Assembly: GCA_002338615.1 (NCBI GenBank)
Contig: DDIS01000191.1
Coordinates: forward strand, 1-10,934
Reading direction: 5' to 3'
From: Proteobacteria bacterium UBA1844
Lineage (GTDB): Bacteria > Pseudomonadota > Gammaproteobacteria > Steroidobacterales > Woeseiaceae
Length of the DNA stretch: 10,934 nucleotides
A program made the translations under genes and the position numbers. Position 1 is the first letter of the stretch, and every line of letters starts with the position of its first letter. Positions 43 to 10,934 of the stretch are shown piece by piece. The notes under the pieces were generated by a model. The model worked only from the letters and a program-made list of their open reading frames with translations, searched no databases and was not told where the DNA came from.

Positions 43-92
43 CTAATGTAACCTTAATGTCGCTTGACTAGTCTGGGTGCCTCGACAATCAA
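43..92 (+). promoter_or_regulatory. Candidate response-regulator operator and weak promoter upstream of ygiW
   Basis: TAATGT occurs at 44-49 and again at 55-60, an 11-nt step or one helical turn. A related CTTGA word starts at 63. OmpR-family regulators such as QseB and PmrA bind tandem half-sites with about this spacing, often CTTAA-like, and CTTAA is present at 53-57. TTGACT at 64-69 matches a -35 box at five of six positions, but no good -10 follows (only an AATCAA/GACAAT-like stretch at 84-92), which would suit an activated promoter. The assignment to the regulator encoded at 667-1323 is inference. Confidence 0.35.
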
Positions 93-109
93 AACCAGAG
101 GCAAGATCG

Positions 110-463
110 ATGAAGACTATATTGACATTATTGGCGTTTTTCTCAATTGCAGCGGCCGCACAGGCCGACACAGGTGCTGGCGGCTTTCAAGGCCCCGACG
201 GCCGCAGTCTCGTGACAGCCGCAGAGGTCGAAGGCCTGGCAGACGATACACAAGTCAGGCTGCTTGGTTATATCGTGCGAAAGACTGGAGACGAGGAATA
301 CGAATTTAAAGACGACTCCGGCACGCTCATCGTCGAAATTGACGATGACGACTGGCGCGGTGTCAACGTCTCCCCAGGCGACAAAGTGCAACTGACGGGC
401 GAAGTCGACAAGGAATGGAATCGTACTGAAGTAGAAGTGGATTCCGTACAATTGGCAGAGTAG
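110..463 (+). CDS. ygiW: YgiW/YdeI family periplasmic OB-fold stress protein
   Basis: The product is 117 aa. Residues 1-20 form a signal peptide (MKT start, hydrophobic core, AQA before the likely cleavage), so the protein should be periplasmic. The mature part carries the family signatures GGFQGP, LADDTQVRLLGYIV, EYEFKDDSGT and GEVDKEWN, and aligns by eye over its whole length with E. coli YgiW, a single bacterial OB-fold (BOF) domain linked to stress tolerance. It is very acidic, with a four-Asp run in the middle. The ATG at 110 is preferred over a GTG at 77 because AGAGG lies 8 nt before it and the signal peptide begins there. A QseBC-type pair follows; ygiW neighbours qseBC in E. coli and is co-transcribed with it in Aggregatibacter. 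The biochemical role of the family is not settled. Confidence 0.88.
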   Translation: MKTILTLLAFFSIAAAAQADTGAGGFQGPDGRSLVTAAEVEGLADDTQVRLLGYIVRKTGDEEYEFKDDSGTLIVEIDDDDWRGVNVSPGDKVQLTGEVDKEWNRTEVEVDSVQLAE

Positions 464-666
464 CCATTTCGGACCAATGGATCTGGCCACACCGGGGGTC
501 CGCGCGGCAGCAACGGACGGACTGCTCGCGGCCCCTTCGCTTATGCCAGAGAGGACCCTGACAGCCTGTTGAAAACGTCCTGGCCGGCACGATACAGCGT
601 TGCGAATCGGCTCACGATCAAAGCAAGATTGTTGCATTTACTGAAGCGCCATCTGGATAGCTGCCT

Positions 667-1323
667 GTGTACTTACTGCTCGTCGAAGACGACCTCAATC
701 TGGGCAAGGCCCTGCTCAAACTGCTGCAGCCGCACTATCGCATGCATTGGGTGCGTAGCTTGCAGGCCGCCAGGGAGTACATGGCCGTTGCCGACTACGA
801 CGCCGTCTTGCTCGATCTGGGCCTGCCCGACGGCGATGGCGTGGAATGGCTGCATACCCTGCGCAGGGCGGGCGCGCAATTGCCGGTGTTGATTCTATCT
901 GCACGCGATGCGCTCGACGATCGCGTTCGCGGGCTGGATACTGGCGCTGATGACTACCTGGTCAAGCCGTTTGAAGCGGATGAACTCCTCGCGCGAATTC
1001 GCGTTTTGCTGCGCCGCAAGTCGGGCGCAGCGCAGTCGCGGCTCACGGCCGGGGACTTGAGCTTTTCTGCCGACCACCAGCAGTTCTACCTGCATGACGA
1101 AGCGATCGATCTCCCGCCGAAGGAATATCAGATACTTGCGGTCCTCATTCAGGCACGCGATAAAACCGTCAGCAGGGAACGTCTTTCCCAGCAATTGTAT
1201 GGCTTGGGGCAGGGCACGGACTCGAACACCCTGGACGTGCATATGCACATGCTGCGCAAGATCGTTGGCAAGGAACGCATCGTCACGGTACGTGGTCTTG
1301 GTTACCGGTTACTGAGCCAATGA
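667..1323 (+). CDS. OmpR/QseB-like response regulator
   Basis: This 218-aa protein has an N-terminal receiver domain (about 1-115) and a C-terminal winged-helix DNA-binding domain (about 126-216). Receiver residues are all present: acidic pair D8/D9 in LVEDD, phosphoacceptor D50 in LLDLGLPDGDG, S78 in ILSARD and K100 in LVKPF. The effector domain ends in the typical SNTLDVHMHMLRK and TVRGLGYRL motifs. The LSARDALDDRVRGLDTGADDYLVKPF stretch resembles QseB and PmrA. The start is GTG at 667, which gives the usual receiver N-terminus; the only ribosome site is a weak GGA at 655-657. The stop overlaps the kinase start (ATGA at 1320-1323), so the two are translationally coupled. It probably controls its own region, including ygiW and the receptor gene, which is inference from position. 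I do not assign qseB versus pmrA. Confidence 0.93.
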   Translation: MYLLLVEDDLNLGKALLKLLQPHYRMHWVRSLQAAREYMAVADYDAVLLDLGLPDGDGVEWLHTLRRAGAQLPVLILSARDALDDRVRGLDTGADDYLVKPFEADELLARIRVLLRRKSGAAQSRLTAGDLSFSADHQQFYLHDEAIDLPPKEYQILAVLIQARDKTVSRERLSQQLYGLGQGTDSNTLDVHMHMLRKIVGKERIVTVRGLGYRLLSQ

Positions 1324-2624
1324 AAATTCGCCTGTCACGCATTGCACTATTACTGGCATTCAGCACGGTCCTGACCGGGGTGGCGGGTGTTGCGGCCACC
1401 TACATCGTGGCAAAAGATGAATTTCGCGAGTTGCTCGAGGACGATCTGAAATCGCAAAGCCGGCTTTTATCGAAGTTGCTGGCGTCGGACGCCAATGCGC
1501 TGACGAACAAAGAGCTGACACAGCTGCTCAGCGATGTGTTTGAGGAAGACGATGAAGATACGCTGTGGGTGAATGTCTACGATCGGCACAGCGGGCAGCT
1601 GGCCAGCAACCTGCGACACGAGCTGCCGGCACCGGACGGAGATCACCATGAGCTGACACTGCAACTGGATGGCCACACGTGGGAGGGCCGGCAGCGCGAG
1701 GAAGGTCCGCTGCTGGTACAGCTTCTGCGACGCGATGACTATCTCGAACATGTGCGAGAGGAGGTTCTGGAAGATATTGCAACGCCGGTTCTGGCCGTGG
1801 GAGCGATAAATCTGCTGTTACTGGCGACGTTTATAGCTATGGTGCTGCGGCCGGTCACGCGCCTGAGCCGACAAATAGAAACGCGCAATGCGGATTCGCT
1901 GGAGCCGCTGTCCGTCAAGACATCGACCCTGGAAGTGGCCGTCTTGCGGGATACGGTAAACCGCCTGATCAGCGGGATCGACGAGGTCCTGACCCGGGAG
2001 CGGCAATTCGCAAACGATGTCGCGCATGAACTGCGCACGCCGCTGACGACGCTCAAACTTGAGCTTGCCAGCAACGACCCCGACCTCGAAACATTGAAAT
2101 ACGAAGTCAACCGCTTGACCCAGCTCGTCGGCCAGATGCTGACCCTCGCAAGGGTCGAACAAGCGCATCTGCGGCAGTCGTTCAAAGCGATACAACTGGA
2201 TCAGCTTTGCCTGCGAGAACTGGAGCGCCTCCGACCCCGTATCGATGCGGTCGAAATGCAGGTTCAGACGTCACTGGCGCCATTGACGGTCGCCGGCGAC
2301 GAAGTGTTGCTGGGTTCATTGTTCAGCAATCTGTTATTGAACGTTATCCACCATTGCGCGCCCGGCACGGAGATTGCGGTGAGCCTCGAGCAGGTAACCG
2401 GTGCCGTTCGCCTGAGCGTGGAGGATAACGGACCCGGTATCGAAGCTTCGCAGGTTGAGCGGCTTAACAAAGGCTTCACCCGCATGGACAGCCGCAGCTC
2501 CGGCCATGGCCTGGGCCTCGCTATCTGCCGCAAGATTGCGGAAGTACACGGTGCAACGCTGACTTTCCTCGCACGGGATGACAGTGTGACGGGCTTGCGG
2601 GTGCAGCTGGATTTTCCGGATTAA
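1320..2624 (+). CDS. QseC/PmrB-like sensor histidine kinase
   Basis: This 434-aa inner-membrane kinase has TM1 at about residues 8-30, a periplasmic domain of about 125 aa, TM2 at about 155-176, then a linker with a HAMP-like character. The dimerisation domain carries the H-box FANDVAHELRTPL with phosphorylated H236. The ATPase domain has an N-box (N337 and N341), G1 as EDNGPGIE (369-375) and G2 as GHGLGLA (395-401), so it looks active. The periplasmic part holds an acidic run EEDDEDT (75-81), comparable in character to the acidic patches of PhoQ and PmrB that sense cations. The signal is not known. It overlaps the regulator gene by 4 nt and is followed after 34 nt by the TonB-dependent receptor gene, suggesting one transcript. 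Confidence 0.92.
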   Translation: MKIRLSRIALLLAFSTVLTGVAGVAATYIVAKDEFRELLEDDLKSQSRLLSKLLASDANALTNKELTQLLSDVFEEDDEDTLWVNVYDRHSGQLASNLRHELPAPDGDHHELTLQLDGHTWEGRQREEGPLLVQLLRRDDYLEHVREEVLEDIATPVLAVGAINLLLLATFIAMVLRPVTRLSRQIETRNADSLEPLSVKTSTLEVAVLRDTVNRLISGIDEVLTRERQFANDVAHELRTPLTTLKLELASNDPDLETLKYEVNRLTQLVGQMLTLARVEQAHLRQSFKAIQLDQLCLRELERLRPRIDAVEMQVQTSLAPLTVAGDEVLLGSLFSNLLLNVIHHCAPGTEIAVSLEQVTGAVRLSVEDNGPGIEASQVERLNKGFTRMDSRSSGHGLGLAICRKIAEVHGATLTFLARDDSVTGLRVQLDFPD

Positions 2625-2629
2625 CCGGA
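2615..2629 (+). other. Small hairpin spanning the kinase stop codon
   Basis: TCCGG (2615-2619) and CCGGA (2625-2629) form a perfect five-pair stem whose five-base loop is ATTAA and contains the kinase TAA. No T-run follows, so it is not a convincing terminator. It could act as an RNA processing or stability element between kinase and receptor genes, or be chance. Confidence 0.3.
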
Positions 2630-2658
2630 GTTTAAGGTTCATCTGCCAGACTCGCTGC

Positions 2659-4776
2659 ATGATGAGTACGACAGGGCGACTTGATAAGAGGTTATGGTAC
2701 ACAGCAGCACCGATCAGCCGCGCACTGCCGGTCGCGCGAAGCTGCCGGTTATTGATAGCTGCGCTACTCCTGTGCGCCGGGGTGTCGTCAGTGGCGGCTG
2801 AAGAGCAAAGCAGCGTGCGTGTATTTCCGGTGGAGTTCTTCGCTGATGCCCAGGCACAAACCGCGTACGACATGATCTCGCTGTTGCCGGGATTCACCTT
2901 CGATGCGGGTGATAAAAATGTGCGTGGTTATTCGGGCAGTACCGGCAATGTCCTGATCGATGGCCAGCGACCGGTGAGCAAATTTGACGATCTTGCAAAT
3001 GTACTGCAGCGAATTCCTGCGGCAACGGTAGCCAGGGTAGATCTGATTCGTGGTACTGCAACCGGTATTGATATGCAAGGGCGGTTGCTGGTTGCCAATA
3101 TAGTACGTCGAAACGAGGCGGCAATGGATACAAGTGCGGAGCTGGGACTATATGCTCATGGCGAGGGTCACTGGTTGCCGGAGGGGCGGCTCGAGGCCTC
3201 TCGCCGCTGGGGTGAGCAGCTTGTCGAAGGCTCAGTGCATGCCTACCAGCTTGCGGATGACGATAGTGGCGACGGGTTCCGGCAGCGCACGGATACCGCG
3301 GGCAATGTGACCGATCATGCGCGGTCCAGCCTGTTCGCGGCAGACGAAGGCATGCAGGCGGCGCTCGGGTACGAGCGACCTCTTTTGGACGGCAAACTGC
3401 GGCTCAACACGGTCTTGCTCAGCGAACAAAAGAAAGAAGATGAAGACTTGCGCTTCGATATTCCGATGACCGATAGCGTGGCCATCAGGGAGATCAAGAG
3501 TCACGATGAGATAGAGCTGGGCGCACATTTTGATCGCCCGCTTGGCGGCGATAGCACGCTCAATGTCCTTTTAATCCAGCAGATCAGGCAACAGGACAAA
3601 ACTGAGACGGAGATAACGGATGGTGCCAACGCTGCGTTTACCGAGAACAGCGAATCGGGCGAAACGATCGCGCGGGCAACGATTCGAAATTCCCTGTCAG
3701 GTGGACTTGTGCTCGAATGGGGCGCAGAGCTCGCCTACAATTTTCTGGACAGCAATTTTATCAGCGAGGAAGATGGCAGTCCGGTGTTCGTACCAAACGC
3801 GTCCGTGCATGTGGAAGAAAACCGTGCGGAAGGATTCACCAATGTAAGTTGGGTATCCGGGCCACGGTTAAGCAGCGAGGTCGGAATCGCATTCGAATTC
3901 TCCCGCATCAGCCAGGAAAGCGATGACACGACGAGGAAATCGCTCAGTTATCTGAAGCCAAGAGCAGCGTTGACCTGGACGCCGACTGACGTCGACCAGT
4001 TTCGCTTCCGCTTGCAACGAAACGTCGGGCAACTTGATTTTGACGACTTTGTTTCGTCAGCGGAATTGTCGACAAGCACCCTGAACATCGGCAACACGGA
4101 CCTCGAGCCTTACACAGCGTGGGACCTCACGGCAAACTGGGAGCGACTGTTTTGGCGCGGCGCGATTCTGGTGCTTGGACTGCGACATGCGTGGATGGAT
4201 AAGGTCGTGGACATTATTCCTGTCTACGCGGACACGGATGGCGACGGCGTTGATGAGGTCTACGATGGCCCGGGCAACCTCGGCAAAGGCAGCCTTGACG
4301 AATTCAACCTGGGGCTGGATCTGCCGTTGGACGGGATTGGTATCAGTGGCGGCACTCTCAAAGGCAACGTCGCCTACGTGCGAAGCTCGGTGCGCGACCC
4401 TTTGACCAATGAACGGCGGCCGATGGCGGACACGCAGCAAGCCTGGCAAGGTGAGATGGAATTTACTCAGGACCTGCCGGCGCATCGGCTGCGCTGGGGG
4501 GTGAACCTCAAGCTGGCTGAATCGAAGCCCGAGTATCGCCTGGACGAGACCCGGGTCGAGTGCGAGGATTTCTGGGTCGGCATGTTCGTCAACTACTACT
4601 TAACGGACGCATGGACCGTATCGCTCAGGCTTGAAAACCTGAGCGCTCGCAAGCAACACCTGGCACGTACCCTGTACGACGCTCCGAGAGACACGGGTAA
4701 TGTTGATGCGTACGAAGCGCGGTCCATGGAGTTTTCACCTTACGTGTACCTGCAGGTGCGCTGGCAACGGCATTGA
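2659..4776 (+). CDS. TonB-dependent outer-membrane receptor, substrate unknown
   Basis: The product is 705 aa. The N-terminus has a long basic n-region, a hydrophobic core at about 31-42 and a likely cleavage after VAA at 47, so it is exported. The plug domain spans about 55-155 and shows the usual words LLPGFTFD, NVRGYSG, VLIDGQRPVSK, LQRIPAATVARVDLIRG. The rest is a beta-barrel of alternating amphipathic strands rich in aromatic residues, ending in SPYVYLQVRWQRH. Length fits the family (about 650-850). The plug style is that of a proteobacterial receptor subgroup without an N-terminal carboxypeptidase-like domain. A DTDGDGVDEVYD stretch at 525-536 resembles an EF-hand calcium loop. The start is ATG 2659 or ATG 2662; no strong ribosome site is visible. 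Close linkage to the two-component pair suggests regulated uptake of a nutrient or metal complex, but the ligand cannot be read from sequence. Confidence 0.87.
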   Translation: MMSTTGRLDKRLWYTAAPISRALPVARSCRLLIAALLLCAGVSSVAAEEQSSVRVFPVEFFADAQAQTAYDMISLLPGFTFDAGDKNVRGYSGSTGNVLIDGQRPVSKFDDLANVLQRIPAATVARVDLIRGTATGIDMQGRLLVANIVRRNEAAMDTSAELGLYAHGEGHWLPEGRLEASRRWGEQLVEGSVHAYQLADDDSGDGFRQRTDTAGNVTDHARSSLFAADEGMQAALGYERPLLDGKLRLNTVLLSEQKKEDEDLRFDIPMTDSVAIREIKSHDEIELGAHFDRPLGGDSTLNVLLIQQIRQQDKTETEITDGANAAFTENSESGETIARATIRNSLSGGLVLEWGAELAYNFLDSNFISEEDGSPVFVPNASVHVEENRAEGFTNVSWVSGPRLSSEVGIAFEFSRISQESDDTTRKSLSYLKPRAALTWTPTDVDQFRFRLQRNVGQLDFDDFVSSAELSTSTLNIGNTDLEPYTAWDLTANWERLFWRGAILVLGLRHAWMDKVVDIIPVYADTDGDGVDEVYDGPGNLGKGSLDEFNLGLDLPLDGIGISGGTLKGNVAYVRSSVRDPLTNERRPMADTQQAWQGEMEFTQDLPAHRLRWGVNLKLAESKPEYRLDETRVECEDFWVGMFVNYYLTDAWTVSLRLENLSARKQHLARTLYDAPRDTGNVDAYEARSMEFSPYVYLQVRWQRH

Positions 4777-4862
4777 AATTGGACAATGTCATAGGCGGCT
4801 GCGACGGTCCCCTGCAGGTTTGCGTCTGCCGACTGCTTCACAGGTCTCGATGTTTGCCAGCA

Positions 4863-4891
4863 TTGCCAACGGCATAGGCGTGTGCTAACTA
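4863..4891 (+). promoter_or_regulatory. Weak candidate promoter for the DoxX gene
   Basis: TTGCCA (4863-4868, five of six to the -35 consensus) is followed after 17 nt by TAACTA (4886-4891), a poor -10 that is preceded by an extended TGn (4882-4885 region). This would place the start near 4898 and leave a leader of about 50 nt. The 170-nt gap after the receptor gene makes a separate promoter plausible. Evidence is by eye only. Confidence 0.25.
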
Positions 4892-4946
4892 TGGGGAAGC
4901 TTCAACACGCAGCTAGCCCACGAATAAGAACAGAGGGGACTCAAAA

Positions 4947-5318
4947 ATGTTGTCGATAATGAAAAAATACGAGAACCAAGCCTATGCGCTGATGCGGATT
5001 ACAACGGGCTTCATGTTTCTGTGCCACGGTGCGTCGAAATTCATGACCATGGGGGATGCCGCACGTCCGTTTCATATCCAGTGGATCGCCGCACCTATTG
5101 AGCTTATCGGTGGTGCTTTAGTAATGCTCGGACTGCTTACTGTACCGGCCGCGTTTCTCTGTGCCGGCATGGCTGCTGCCGCTTACTGGGTTGGGCACTT
5201 TCCGCGCGGTAATGTACTGCCCATTTCAAACGGTGGTGACGCGGCTGCACTTTTCGCATTCGTATTTCTCTATATTTCTGCGAAAGGGACTGGCATCTGG
5301 GGTATTGGCAAGGACTGA
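4947..5318 (+). CDS. DoxX family inner-membrane protein
   Basis: This 123-aa protein has four predicted membrane segments at about residues 12-30, 46-65, 67-84 and 97-113. Family landmarks are RITTGFMFLCHGASKF in the first helix, the PIELIGGALVMLGLL segment in the second, and NGGDAAALFAFVFLYISAKG near the end. Length is normal for a single-domain DoxX protein. Family members are linked to redox or sulfur-compound metabolism and oxidative stress, but the function of most, including this one, is unknown. The start at ATG 4947 is supported by GAGGGG at 4933-4938, 8 nt upstream; an internal ATG at 4959 lacks this. It is the last gene of the + strand block, followed by a strong hairpin. Confidence 0.88.
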   Translation: MLSIMKKYENQAYALMRITTGFMFLCHGASKFMTMGDAARPFHIQWIAAPIELIGGALVMLGLLTVPAAFLCAGMAAAAYWVGHFPRGNVLPISNGGDAAALFAFVFLYISAKGTGIWGIGKD

Positions 5319-5435: not shown

Positions 5436-5744
5436 TGGTGGGCCCGCCAGGACTCGAACCTGGGACCAAGGGATTCACTGTATCCACTCATTTCTGAATG
5501 GAGCGGACTATCTCATCACCCTCAACTTAATGGTAGGGGCGGGACGCTCTAGCCTGTTATTAAGAACACTCAAGTTCCCAGGTAGTCTCTGCACCGTCTG
5601 GCGGTGTACCGCCAGCTTGGCTCAGGATTGCCATCAGCCGAACTGCTAAGGTTTCCCTGAATTCATCCCGTTCATTTTGCGACTTTCGACGCAAACGCAC
5701 CTTTTTGATGAGTCCCCTGCTCTAACCAACTGAGCTACAGGCCC
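5436..5744 (-). tRNA. tRNA-Ile(CAU), split by a group I intron
   Basis: The 5' exon is 5744-5708 (37 nt) and the 3' exon 5475-5436 (40 nt). Joined, they give a 77-nt tRNA with every arm intact: acceptor GGGCCTG with CGGGCCC, D-stem GCTC/GAGC, anticodon stem GGGGA/TCCCT, loop CTCATAA, T-arm CCAGG-TTCGAGT-CCTGG, discriminator A, and encoded CCA (5438-5436). The anticodon CAU is at 5710-5708. CAU could mean Met or Ile2, but the pairs C4-G69 and C5-G68 are those TilS uses in E. coli tRNA-Ile2, and the anticodon arm matches E. coli ileX in pattern. ileX also lies downstream of rpoD in E. coli. The C34 would need lysidine modification to read AUA. Five T residues follow the CCA on the transcribed strand. 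Confidence 0.93.
5476..5707 (-). ncRNA. Group I self-splicing intron in the tRNA anticodon loop
   Basis: A 232-nt insertion lies between U36 and A37, directly after the anticodon. P1: exon CAU (5710-5708) pairs with guide GUG (5700-5698), giving the U-G wobble at the 5' splice site. P2: TTTGCG/CGCAAA (5695-5690, 5681-5676) capped by GAAA. P3: CGGGAT/GTCCCG (5670-5665, 5545-5540). P4: TCAGG/CCTGA (5660-5656, 5626-5622), with conserved AAACC and CAA joiners around P5. P6 hairpin: CTGGCGG/CCGCCAG (5615-5609, 5604-5598). P7: GACTA/TAGTC (5587-5583, 5510-5506), preceded by GCAGA. P8: TACC/GGTG (5535-5532, 5520-5517), then six-base J8/7 ATGAGA. P9: CCATTCA/TGAGTGG (5501-5495, 5490-5484) with a GAAA loop. 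The last base is G (5476), as required. Host gene, insertion point and guide match the Azoarcus tRNA-Ile intron. No reading frame for an endonuclease fits inside. Splicing activity is inferred. Confidence 0.92.
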
Positions 5745-5955: not shown

Positions 5956-7779
5956 CTAATCTTCCAGCAAAAAGCTCCGCAACTGATCCGAGCGGGTCGG
6001 GTGACGCAGCTTGCGCAGTGCCTTGGCTTCTATCTGGCGAATACGTTCGCGTGTTACATCGAACTGCTTGCCGACTTCCTCGAGCGTGTGGTCCGTATTC
6101 ATGTCGATACCAAAACGCATGCGCAATACTTTCGCTTCGCGCGGAGTAAGACCCGCGAGTACCGAGTGCGTAGTTTCTCTCAGGCCTTGCGAGGTTGCCG
6201 ACTCAACCGGTGAATGGACTGTCGTGTCCTCGATGAAATCGCCCAGATGCGAATCTTCATCGTCGCCAATTGGCGTTTCCATCGAAATAGGCTCTTTTGC
6301 AATCTTGAGTACCTTGCGTACCTTGTCTTCGGGCATCTCCATGCGTTCGGCCAATTCATCGGGCAGCGGTTCGCGGCCCATCTCCTGCAGCATCTGCCGG
6401 GAAATGCGGTTCAGCTTGTTGATCGTTTCGATCATGTGCACCGGGATACGGATAGTACGGGCCTGGTCCGCGATCGAGCGCGTAATTGCCTGGCGAATCC
6501 ACCAGGTGGCGTAGGTCGAAAACTTGTAGCCGCGACGGTATTCGAACTTGTCGACCGCCTTCATCAGGCCGATGTTTCCTTCCTGGATCAGGTCGAGGAA
6601 CTGTAAGCCACGATTTGTGTATTTTTTCGCGATTGAAATGACGAGGCGCAGGTTGGCTTCCACCATTTCTTTTTTCGCGCGCCGCGCTTTCGCTTCACCG
6701 ATCGACATTTGTCGATTGATTTCCTTGATCTCGGCAATGGACAGGCGTGTGTCCTGTTCCACAGCGAGCAACTTGCGTTGCGCACGCAGGATGTCGTCCT
6801 TGAGCTTGGCAAGAATGGATGAGTGCTTACGCTTTGCGCGAATATGTTTGTCAACCCATTTCAGGTTGGTTTCACTCTTCGGGAAACTGGACAGGAAATC
6901 CTTGCGCGGCATGTGCGCGTCACGCACACAAATACGCATTACCAGGCGTTCCTGGGTGCGAATGACCGCAACCGCATCGCGCAGGTTCCGAACCAGCGCG
7001 TCAAACAACTTCGGCGCGAGCTTGAGCTCCATCAGCTGATCAGCAAGGTCTGCGAGGATCTTCTTCGTTCGCTTGTCCTTGTAGCCGTGTTCCTCGATCG
7101 ATTTGAGCGAGCGATTGTGCAATCTTCGAATGACCTTGAAGCGCGCTTCGACTTCCTCCGGATCCGGCCCGGTATCGATGACTACTTCTTCGTCGTCGTC
7201 GTCATCGTCGGATTTTTGCTGCGGCGGTTTGATCTCGTCGGGTGCATTCGGGTCGATAAAGCCGACCAGCAGGTCCTGCATGCGCGTGTCGCCCGCGCTG
7301 ACCGCGTCAGCAACCAGCAGCAGCGCATCAATCGTCGGCGGAAAGTGCGCCATGTGATATTTGACCTGGTTCAGGCCGTCTTCGATGCGCTTGGCAATTT
7401 CGATTTCGCCCTGGCGCGTCAGTAGTTCGACGGTACCCATCTCTCGCATGTACATGCGCACGGGGTCGGTTGTACGACCGAATTCGGCATCAACGCTGGC
7501 GAGGGCCGCTTCGGCCTCTTCAACGGCTTCATCGTCCGTAGCAGCGGCGTCGGACAACACGAGCGACTCGGCATCCGGCGCTTTCTCATGCACCGTAATA
7601 CCCATGTCGTTAATCATGTTGACGATGTCCTCGATCTGTTCCGGATCGACGATGTCATTCGGCAAGCTATCGTTAACCTCTGCATAGGTCAGGTAGCCTT
7701 GCTCCTTGCCGCGGGCAATTAAATTCTTTAACTGTTGAACCTGTTTATTGCCGCCAATCATTGCTCGTTTTTCGCTCAA
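5956..7779 (-). CDS. rpoD: RNA polymerase primary sigma factor sigma-70
   Basis: From the chosen start the product is 607 aa, close to the usual 613-617. Region 1.1 includes [15 protein letters not shown] (about 23-37); region 1.2 has [12 protein letters not shown] (about 104-115); a non-conserved insert follows, including six consecutive Asp (191-196). Region 2 starts at [16 protein letters not shown] (372) and includes the -10 recognition segment around [14 protein letters not shown] (about 421-434). Region 4 has [14 protein letters not shown] (544-557) and the -35 binding helix in [18 protein letters not shown]. It directs RNA polymerase to housekeeping promoters. It is the last protein gene of the rpsU operon. 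The TTG at 7779 is chosen because GGAGG sits at 7794-7790, 10 nt upstream; ATG 7761 matches the family N-terminus better but lacks a ribosome site, and TTG 7809 would place that GGAGG inside the gene. Confidence 0.95.
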
Positions 7780-7866
7780 GACGAAACGACCTCCGGTTAA
7801 AAAATGCAAACGACCAAGTGTACTAAACCATCCTGGCTCAATCTATGACTAATTCTGCCTGCGTTG

Positions 7867-10705: not shown

Positions 10706-10934
10706 ATGAATGTCCTCGGCATTGAAACCAGTTGCGACGAGACTGGTATCGCCCTCTACAGTACCGAGGGTGGCCTGCTCGCGCATGCATTGCACAGCCA
10801 GGTCGACCTGCACGCTGTTTACGGCGGAGTGGTGCCGGAGATCGCCTCGCGCGACCACCTGCGCCGCATGCTGCCACTGATCGAGCAGGTTATGGCGGCC
10901 GCCGGGTTAGAGCGGCCGGATGCGATCGCGCACA
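10706..10934 (+). CDS. tsaD: tRNA threonylcarbamoyladenosine synthase subunit TsaD, 5' part
   Basis: Only the first 76 codons are present; the gene runs off the right edge. The N-terminus [18 protein letters not shown] and the later [31 protein letters not shown] are diagnostic of TsaD (formerly Gcp/YgjD). With TsaB and TsaE it transfers threonylcarbamoyl from the AMP intermediate to A37 of tRNAs that read ANN codons, in the cytoplasm. The metal-binding HxxxH lies beyond the window. AGGAG at 10694-10698, 7 nt before the ATG, fixes the start. It is divergent from rpsU, a conserved arrangement. Its modification target A37 is the first base of the 3' exon in the split tRNA-Ile gene nearby. Confidence 0.95.

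Follow-up and report, generated by a model that had tools for sequence, protein, structure and literature searches.

An AUA-decoding tRNA gene split directly after its anticodon by a predicted self-splicing group I intron with phage relatives

Introduction

The intron in the tRNA-Ile(CAU) gene of Azoarcus sp. BH72 is inserted between tRNA positions 36 and 37, bears GAAA loops, has no open reading frame and is about 205 nt long. Its natural triplet is CAU, the isoleucine anticodon, according to a passage of PMC6274277. The phage T4 td ribozyme, of subgroup IA2, differs from the otherwise similar IC3 ribozymes of Azoarcus and Synechococcus, by the description in part of PMC4498298, in having a P7.1/P7.2 extension between P7 and P3; in IA2, P7.1 and P7.2 are linked by G-U-A, as stated in an excerpt of PMC3428280. 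Among bacterial genomes, 36 with missing tRNAs for fMet or Ile2 have been explained by group I introns, with Acidovorax and Burkholderia named for Ile2 (PMC8450103, in the section concerned), and group I introns in tRNA genes are listed in a portion of PMC4033280 for cyanobacteria and for a small number of alpha- and betaproteobacteria.

Here we analyse a split tRNA-Ile(CAU) gene of Proteobacteria bacterium UBA1844 (Gammaproteobacteria; Woeseiaceae), located in a 10,934-nt stretch of DNA (contig DDIS01000191.1) that is referred to in its whole length as the window. Its sequence identifies it as the gene of the AUA tRNA; the split falls directly behind the anticodon and is made by a group I intron that is predicted to splice itself.

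Results

Architecture and splice sites of the split gene

The coordinates of the split gene, as read directly from the letters, are exact (window 5744-5436, minus strand; Table 1). The Rfam model RF00028 matched positions 5720-5484(-) over its full length (1-253 of 253) with 74.9 bits against a cut-off of 50 (E 6.2e-18), which bears out the initial annotation of the insertion as a group I intron, and this was the single RF00028 match found in the whole 4.2-Mb genome. ARAGORN without introns (its default) reported no tRNA in the window; with introns allowed, it found c[5436,5744], placed the intron 2 nt off and named the gene tRNA-Gln(CTG), so that the warning that tRNA finders may overlook such a gene was justified.

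Table 1 Features of the split tRNA-Ile(CAU) gene, its intron and its upstream neighbour (window positions)
Feature	Position	Strand	Details
rpoD, upstream neighbour of split tRNA	5956..7809	-	dnaG and rpsU precede rpoD; same strand as tRNA
5' exon of tRNA-Ile(CAU), tRNA positions 1-36	5708..5744	-	37 nt; anticodon CAU at 5710-5708; read directly
Group I intron	5476..5707	-	232 nt; first nt C 5707, terminal G 5476; from RF00028 and exon parse
Internal guide sequence GUG, forming P1 with anticodon CAU	5698..5700	-	preceding G 5701 pairs with intron C1 (5707); 100% of P1 cells paired
P2 hairpin	5676..5695	-	GAAA loop 5687-5684; both-side changes in 8/8 pairs
P3 5' strand	5665..5670	-	partner 5545-5540; 98.7% of cells paired
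P4 5' strand	5656..5661	-	partner 5626-5621; 99.5% of cells paired
P6/P6a	5594..5620	-	100% and 99.1% of cells paired
P7 5' strand GACUA	5583..5587	-	partner UAGUC 5510-5506; 100% of cells paired, invariant
P7.1/P7.1a extension between P7 and P3	5553..5582	-	CCUG 5582-5579 with CAGG 5556-5553; inner GAAC 5577-5574 with GUUC 5567-5564
P8	5519..5538	-	51.8% of cells paired; partly supported by alignment
P9 hairpin	5484..5501	-	GAAA loop 5494-5491; both-side changes in 7/7 pairs
3' exon, tRNA positions 37-76 and encoded CCA	5436..5475	-	40 nt; read directly and from uninterrupted relatives

The joined exons were compared with eight stretches from seven genomes of the same genus. They are identical over 77 nt to the uninterrupted gene in L440, L442, L443 and L444; in L445, L446 and L447 the uninterrupted gene is 94.8-97.4% identical, and L441 ends at the contig edge. 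As the joined exons match natural uninterrupted alleles, both splice sites are fixed. The proposed identity of the tRNA and the insertion at 36/37 are corroborated. Five of these eight stretches (L441, L442, L444, L446 and L447) have rpoD ahead of the tRNA in the same orientation; at L440, L443 and L445 it was not seen. In a wider set of 128 introns, the terminal G (which was not demanded by the parse) and the following AA are present without exception. The flanking anticodon-stem strands pair 5/5 in 239 of 240 tRNA-Ile introns, under parses that demanded at least four anticodon-stem pairs; the remaining one is without a 5' exon.

Intron fold and covariation

Pairs and covariation were counted in an alignment of 65 related introns, in which 91.5% of the pair cells hold standard pairs, compared with 33.6-45.8% when the partners were slid by 1-3 columns. 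Changes on both sides were seen in 41 of 62 pairs, a number that none of 500 shuffles reached (shuffled mean 29.3), and U.G occupies the 5' splice site in all 65 introns. Of the features listed in the initial annotation, the P1 pairing of CAU with GUG, the terminal G and a GAAA loop on each of P2 and P9 are present; P2 of the window contains one U.U mismatch. The further statement that every core helix can be recognised holds for the P3-P9 core with its conserved P7, but P8 is supported only in part (Table 1). Since P7 is invariant, the alignment itself neither supports nor opposes this helix. The extension between P7 and P3 covaries: 90.9% of the P7.1 cells and 95.5% of the P7.1a cells are paired, with both-side changes in 6 of 8 pairs across the 65 introns.

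The minimum-energy fold predicted for the bare intron joins the 5' strand of P7 to bases further downstream, which may be a misfold. A stem of 4 bp behind P7, which can be drawn in 240 of 240 introns, was dropped because chance stems are likely, and L373 has an assembly gap at that place. An encoded endonuclease was excluded, as had been claimed, by the 232-nt length of the intron, which is too short for one; among the 240 introns, the longest stop-free run measures 105 codons (in a 316-nt intron).

Guide sequence and anticodon

In the window's order, four introns in tRNA-Lys(CUU) genes (L003, L011, L012 and L335) share with the window intron the 36/37 site, the extension and the overall fold, but their guide is GAG, matching the anticodon CUU, whereas that of the window is GUG. 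The middle pair of P1 is A-U in 61 of the 65 aligned introns and U-A in the other 4, which are those of tRNA-Lys(CUU). The four form one clade in two trees, so the change from GUG to GAG was probably a single event. Both host tRNAs have U36, which is needed by the U.G pair at the splice site.

Distribution among bacteria

The idea that such a split gene is rare or unseen had to be abandoned: RF00028 matched in 177 of 396 genomes of the window's order, and tRNA-Ile2 introns were already known, as recorded in part of PMC8450103. We examined 151 loci of the order (two sets of 31 and 120, among the matches listed; L402 repeats L010), and 123 are tRNA-Ile(CAU) genes split at 36/37, the window's own and L401 included. 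The other 28 comprise three tRNA-Ile(CAU) copies at contig ends (L303, L344, L398), four tRNA-Lys(CUU), five tRNA-Leu(UAA), L400, and 15 loci that are 23S rRNA-like or without assignment. This RF00028 set was made without a GGTG requirement, and GGTG nevertheless lies near the start of 122 of the 123 tRNA-Ile introns, the exception being L401. The 23S rRNA-like group I introns of the order at L010, L017 and L005 are apparently closely spaced, and at L344:1-499 the split gene is followed by two additional copies of the end of the tRNA 3' exon. A pattern scan of the order returned the uninterrupted gene in 175 and the split gene in 92 of the 396 genomes (G035 falsely), but both patterns miss variants and the former also matches elongator tRNA-Met.

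Beyond the order, an even sample of 155 genomes of the class, scanned with the GGTG pattern, contained ten with a split gene, both exons and a post-P7 hairpin: the window's own and nine of other families, none of these in the window's order. A class scan with GGTGNC, which fails on the window's own GGTGCG, gave 3 of 321 (L403 and L404 real, L405 not) and is an underestimate. In named genomes, the GGTG pattern found at least 119 stretches, including Lysobacter, Luteimonas, Dyella, Rhodanobacter, Variovorax, Azonexus and Woeseiaceae; a few carriers among them are labelled Bacteroidota and Verrucomicrobiota. Two metagenome-assembled genomes (MAGs) titled Actinomycetes and Halobacteria (L070, L148) hold introns that fall inside the gammaproteobacterial clade, and these labels are probably binning errors. 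No plasmid carrier was found in 72,556 records, four of which match, each across just 12-16% of the query. In a Burkholderiales MAG (L091), an uninterrupted and a split tRNA-Ile(CAU) gene stand in tandem after rpoD, at oriented offsets 5668 and 5933.

The tRNA-Ile2 introns of Acidovorax and Burkholderia interrupt the same tRNA and were missed by tRNAscan-SE, as described in the relevant part of PMC8450103; unlike them, the window intron is gammaproteobacterial, and among named kin the intron tree places it nearest to that of a Woeseiaceae bacterium. Among the Burkholderiales introns, L035 shows the extension and L036 and L142 group with it in the tree. As far as our searches tell, the kind of split gene is thus already known, and what is added here is the extension-bearing lineage, its gammaproteobacterial spread and its phage copies; neither the wider distribution nor the phage link was found in the open-licence PMC literature.

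Phage relatives

Introns of the same kind split tRNA-Ile(CAU) at the same site on four viral contigs (L178, L238, L281, L282), which are the real ones among seven stretches retrieved with a viral GGTG pattern (L174, L179 and L252 are not). A looser viral pattern was discarded as mostly chance, 2 of 120 among the matches listed being parsed as split tRNAs. Klebsiella phage Muenster (MT708547.1; L474:880-1150) carries an unannotated split tRNA-Ile(CAU) gene between annotated tRNA-Ser and tRNA-Asn genes, and in L475, a related phage record, a tRNA with the anticodon CAU, Met or Ile, is likewise split. The introns of Muenster and of the four viral contigs have the tRNA, site, guide and P7-P3 hairpin in common with the window; their split tRNAs, unlike that of the window, sit among phage tRNAs. 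Kin introns also occur in terminase genes of Vibrio phages, and another, in crAss-like phage cr55_1, overlaps an HNH gene. In the terminase region of Vibrio phage R16F (L480:210-1547), three group I intron matches were seen and the gene is annotated in pieces, while in cr55_1 (L476:544-744) a RAGATH-22 RNA match of 127.5 bits lies near the group I intron.

In the tree with phage introns, the gammaproteobacterial introns form one clade, whose sister is the virus-borne tRNA-Ile intron L238 (96/90); several phage rows in this tree have long branches and unsure places. Judged from their sequences, the window intron is kin to phage introns among the introns compared. On L282 (97 kb), the split tRNA-Ile(CAU) is directly followed by a TilS-like gene (L282:10273-11163; TIGR02432 117.6 bits, cut-off 93.6), and the two may constitute a phage kit for AUA decoding; a gene for a NADAR-domain protein lies nearby. 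Some Pseudomonas phages, about 287 kb in size, likewise have an annotated TilS.

Neighbourhood and inheritance

In the 128-intron set, the sequence preceding the split tRNA extends over 1.2 kb or more at 113 loci (14 shorter ones were omitted). At 74 of these, rpoD precedes the tRNA on the same strand at a distance of up to 3 kb (median 215 nt); at 4 it was seen only elsewhere, and at 35 not at all. RpoD residues 430-600 are covered at 84 loci, 78 of them on the same strand, and after removal of the window's duplicate (L001) 77 were compared. Intron and RpoD distances at these 77 loci correlate with a Spearman coefficient of 0.554, which none of 999 permutations reached (highest 0.22), and for 52 of them the nearest intron neighbour is within the five nearest by RpoD. 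Among well-supported splits, 13 of 27 in the intron tree are present in the RpoD tree; in the opposite direction, room is left for transfers because just 12 of 30 RpoD splits (support of at least 0.9) recur in the intron tree. Descent that was mostly vertical, together with losses and some transfers, would account for this pattern.

The intron might instead be chiefly mobile, travelling with phage-borne split tRNAs that recombine with the host tRNA, or by reverse splicing, in which case its link to rpoD would simply reflect the location of the host gene. The phage and the viral contigs with split tRNA-Ile(CAU) genes point in this direction, as do the absence of the intron from 17 of 34 sampled near-complete genomes of one genus and the carriers labelled Bacteroidota and Verrucomicrobiota, but the agreement of intron and RpoD trees far above chance and the single clade of gammaproteobacterial introns argue against it, and we regard predominant mobility as possible though doubtful. 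Inheritance mostly with the host remains our preferred reading.

Relation to the Azoarcus-type introns

The window intron and the IC3 intron of Azoarcus sp. BH72 have in common the host tRNA and a guide that reads CAU, the latter on the evidence of the passage in PMC6274277. The link to Azoarcus drawn in the initial annotation is upheld by the host tRNA, the site and the guide and breaks down on structure, since the P7.1-type extension is absent from IC3 introns as characterised in part of PMC4498298, Azoarcus among them, and present in the window as a covarying P7.1/P7.1a hairpin. The pairing of the guide with the anticodon itself (GUG:CAU) is likewise seen, but cannot serve as a contrast to Azoarcus, whose own triplet is the same in that passage (PMC6274277). 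An extension between P7 and P3 is a mark of IA introns, and the td intron of phage T4 combines it with an IC3-like core (same part of PMC4498298). The G-U-A-joined P7.1 and P7.2 of td, as given in the excerpt of PMC3428280, have as their counterpart in the window one two-part hairpin, as drawn, and an IA2 assignment was rejected. The subgroup is given here no finer than 'IA-like'.

Two introns of the order, L401 and L400, are taken by us as Azoarcus-like. Both lack the extension; L401 splits tRNA-Ile(CAU) at the same 36/37 site, and L400 has a tRNA-like 3' half with no recognisable tRNA half upstream. Together with the tRNA-Leu introns, they stand apart from the window type in two trees (97; 99/97), Azoarcus itself being outside the tree. 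P7 and P3 are 4 nt apart in each of the seven Azoarcus-like and tRNA-Leu introns and at least 31 nt apart in 174 of 189 tRNA-Ile introns (of 240, 51 gave no measure); the 15 short ones show the hairpin by eye. In topology tests, a grouping of all bacterial tRNA-Ile introns was weakly rejected (p 0.032), while a joint clade of 22 gammaproteobacterial and two Azoarcus-like introns was not (p-AU 0.141), so the separation by sequence from the Azoarcus-like introns is not decisive.

That result would suit descent of the window intron from an Azoarcus-type IC3 tRNA-Ile intron of the common ancestor of Beta- and Gammaproteobacteria, with the P7.1 hairpin inserted later, as would the same tRNA, site, GUG guide and GAAA loops. 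Such an origin is improbable, however, as the extension is also found in tRNA-Lys introns and in phage introns, the Azoarcus-like and tRNA-Leu introns are grouped beyond the 99/97 branch, and the P7-P3 spacings of the two sets are far apart. We favour a P7.1-bearing lineage common with phages.

Number of tRNA-Ile(CAU) copies and AUA usage

A second tRNA-Ile(CAU) was not found in the genome (93.8% complete, 217 contigs) when it was searched with the joined tRNA: the search returned the two exons, then tRNA-Lys(CUU), 86% alike, and weaker matches. Thirty tRNAs were found, several expected ones being missing from this draft, and just two with CAU, which sequence reading identifies as elongator and initiator tRNA-Met. 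The split gene is therefore likely, short of proof because of the 93.8% completeness, to be the only tRNA-Ile(CAU) of the genome. In 34 genomes of the genus that are at least 90% complete, the uninterrupted-CAU pattern, which also matches elongator tRNA-Met (own genome included), gave 15 matches in the 17 with the split gene and 39 in the 17 without it; the split-pattern match of G035 contains no intron.

A dead intron in a relic gene, with a tRNA-Ile(CAU) or tRNA-Ile(UAU) from the unassembled part serving AUA, would accord with the incomplete genome and its missing tRNAs, but is very hard to reconcile with exons equal to uninterrupted alleles, compensatory changes across the intron family, the presence of the lysidine enzyme TilS in the genome and the use of AUA in the window, where a tally of nine genes shows it in six of them, for 12 of their 145 Ile codons and a single time in rpoD.

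Discussion

The two steps of group I splicing and the tRNA modifications involved are established knowledge, and on this basis the following pathway can be proposed. The tRNA-Ile(CAU) gene after rpoD would be transcribed as a precursor, in which the intron would fold as a group I ribozyme with its guide GUG bound to CAU (P1, with U36.G at the splice site). External guanosine would cut after U36, whose 3' OH would then attack after the terminal G and join U36 to A37. In the resulting 77-nt tRNA, TilS would modify C34 and the t6A enzymes A37, after which the tRNA would read AUA. The intron would belong to a P7.1-bearing lineage, common with phages and apart from the IC3 lineage of Azoarcus and cyanobacteria, and within Gammaproteobacteria it would have been mostly inherited with its host, with many losses or local transfers. 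The split gene, its splice sites, the covarying fold, the distribution and the kinship with phage introns are shown by the present analysis; the splicing in this organism and the order of historical events are inferred. We consider the explanation as a whole, a split gene spliced by a P7.1-bearing, phage-related and mostly host-inherited ribozyme, highly probable.

An AUA tRNA that depends on a ribozyme would be common in some bacterial groups and yet be overlooked by tRNA finders or given a wrong name. The occupation of one tRNA site by two ribozymes of different build, together with a guide that tracks the anticodon, offers a handle on how group I introns choose and change their targets, and the phage copies suggest a vehicle for the intron. 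A more far-reaching scenario is put forward tentatively. A phage-borne ribozyme lineage may have specialised on the anticodons of U36 tRNAs, the split tRNA-Ile(CAU) of phages, once beside TilS, serving as an AUA-reading kit. Recombination between phage and host tRNAs could have brought the intron into bacterial tRNA-Ile(CAU) genes, where it would have settled for the long term in many families of Gammaproteobacteria, often by rpoD; one guide base (GUG to GAG) would have opened tRNA-Lys(CUU), and the Azoarcus type would have reached the site independently.

Two further parts of the window may be mentioned. An open frame at 10706-10934 (+), upstream of rpsU-dnaG-rpoD-tRNA-Ile, is tsaD-like by its translation and would encode a t6A37 enzyme; the t6A37 position would adjoin the splice junction. 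On the other side, positions 77-5318 (+) hold a row of genes for a BOF-domain protein, a response regulator, a sensor kinase, a TonB-type receptor and a DoxX protein.
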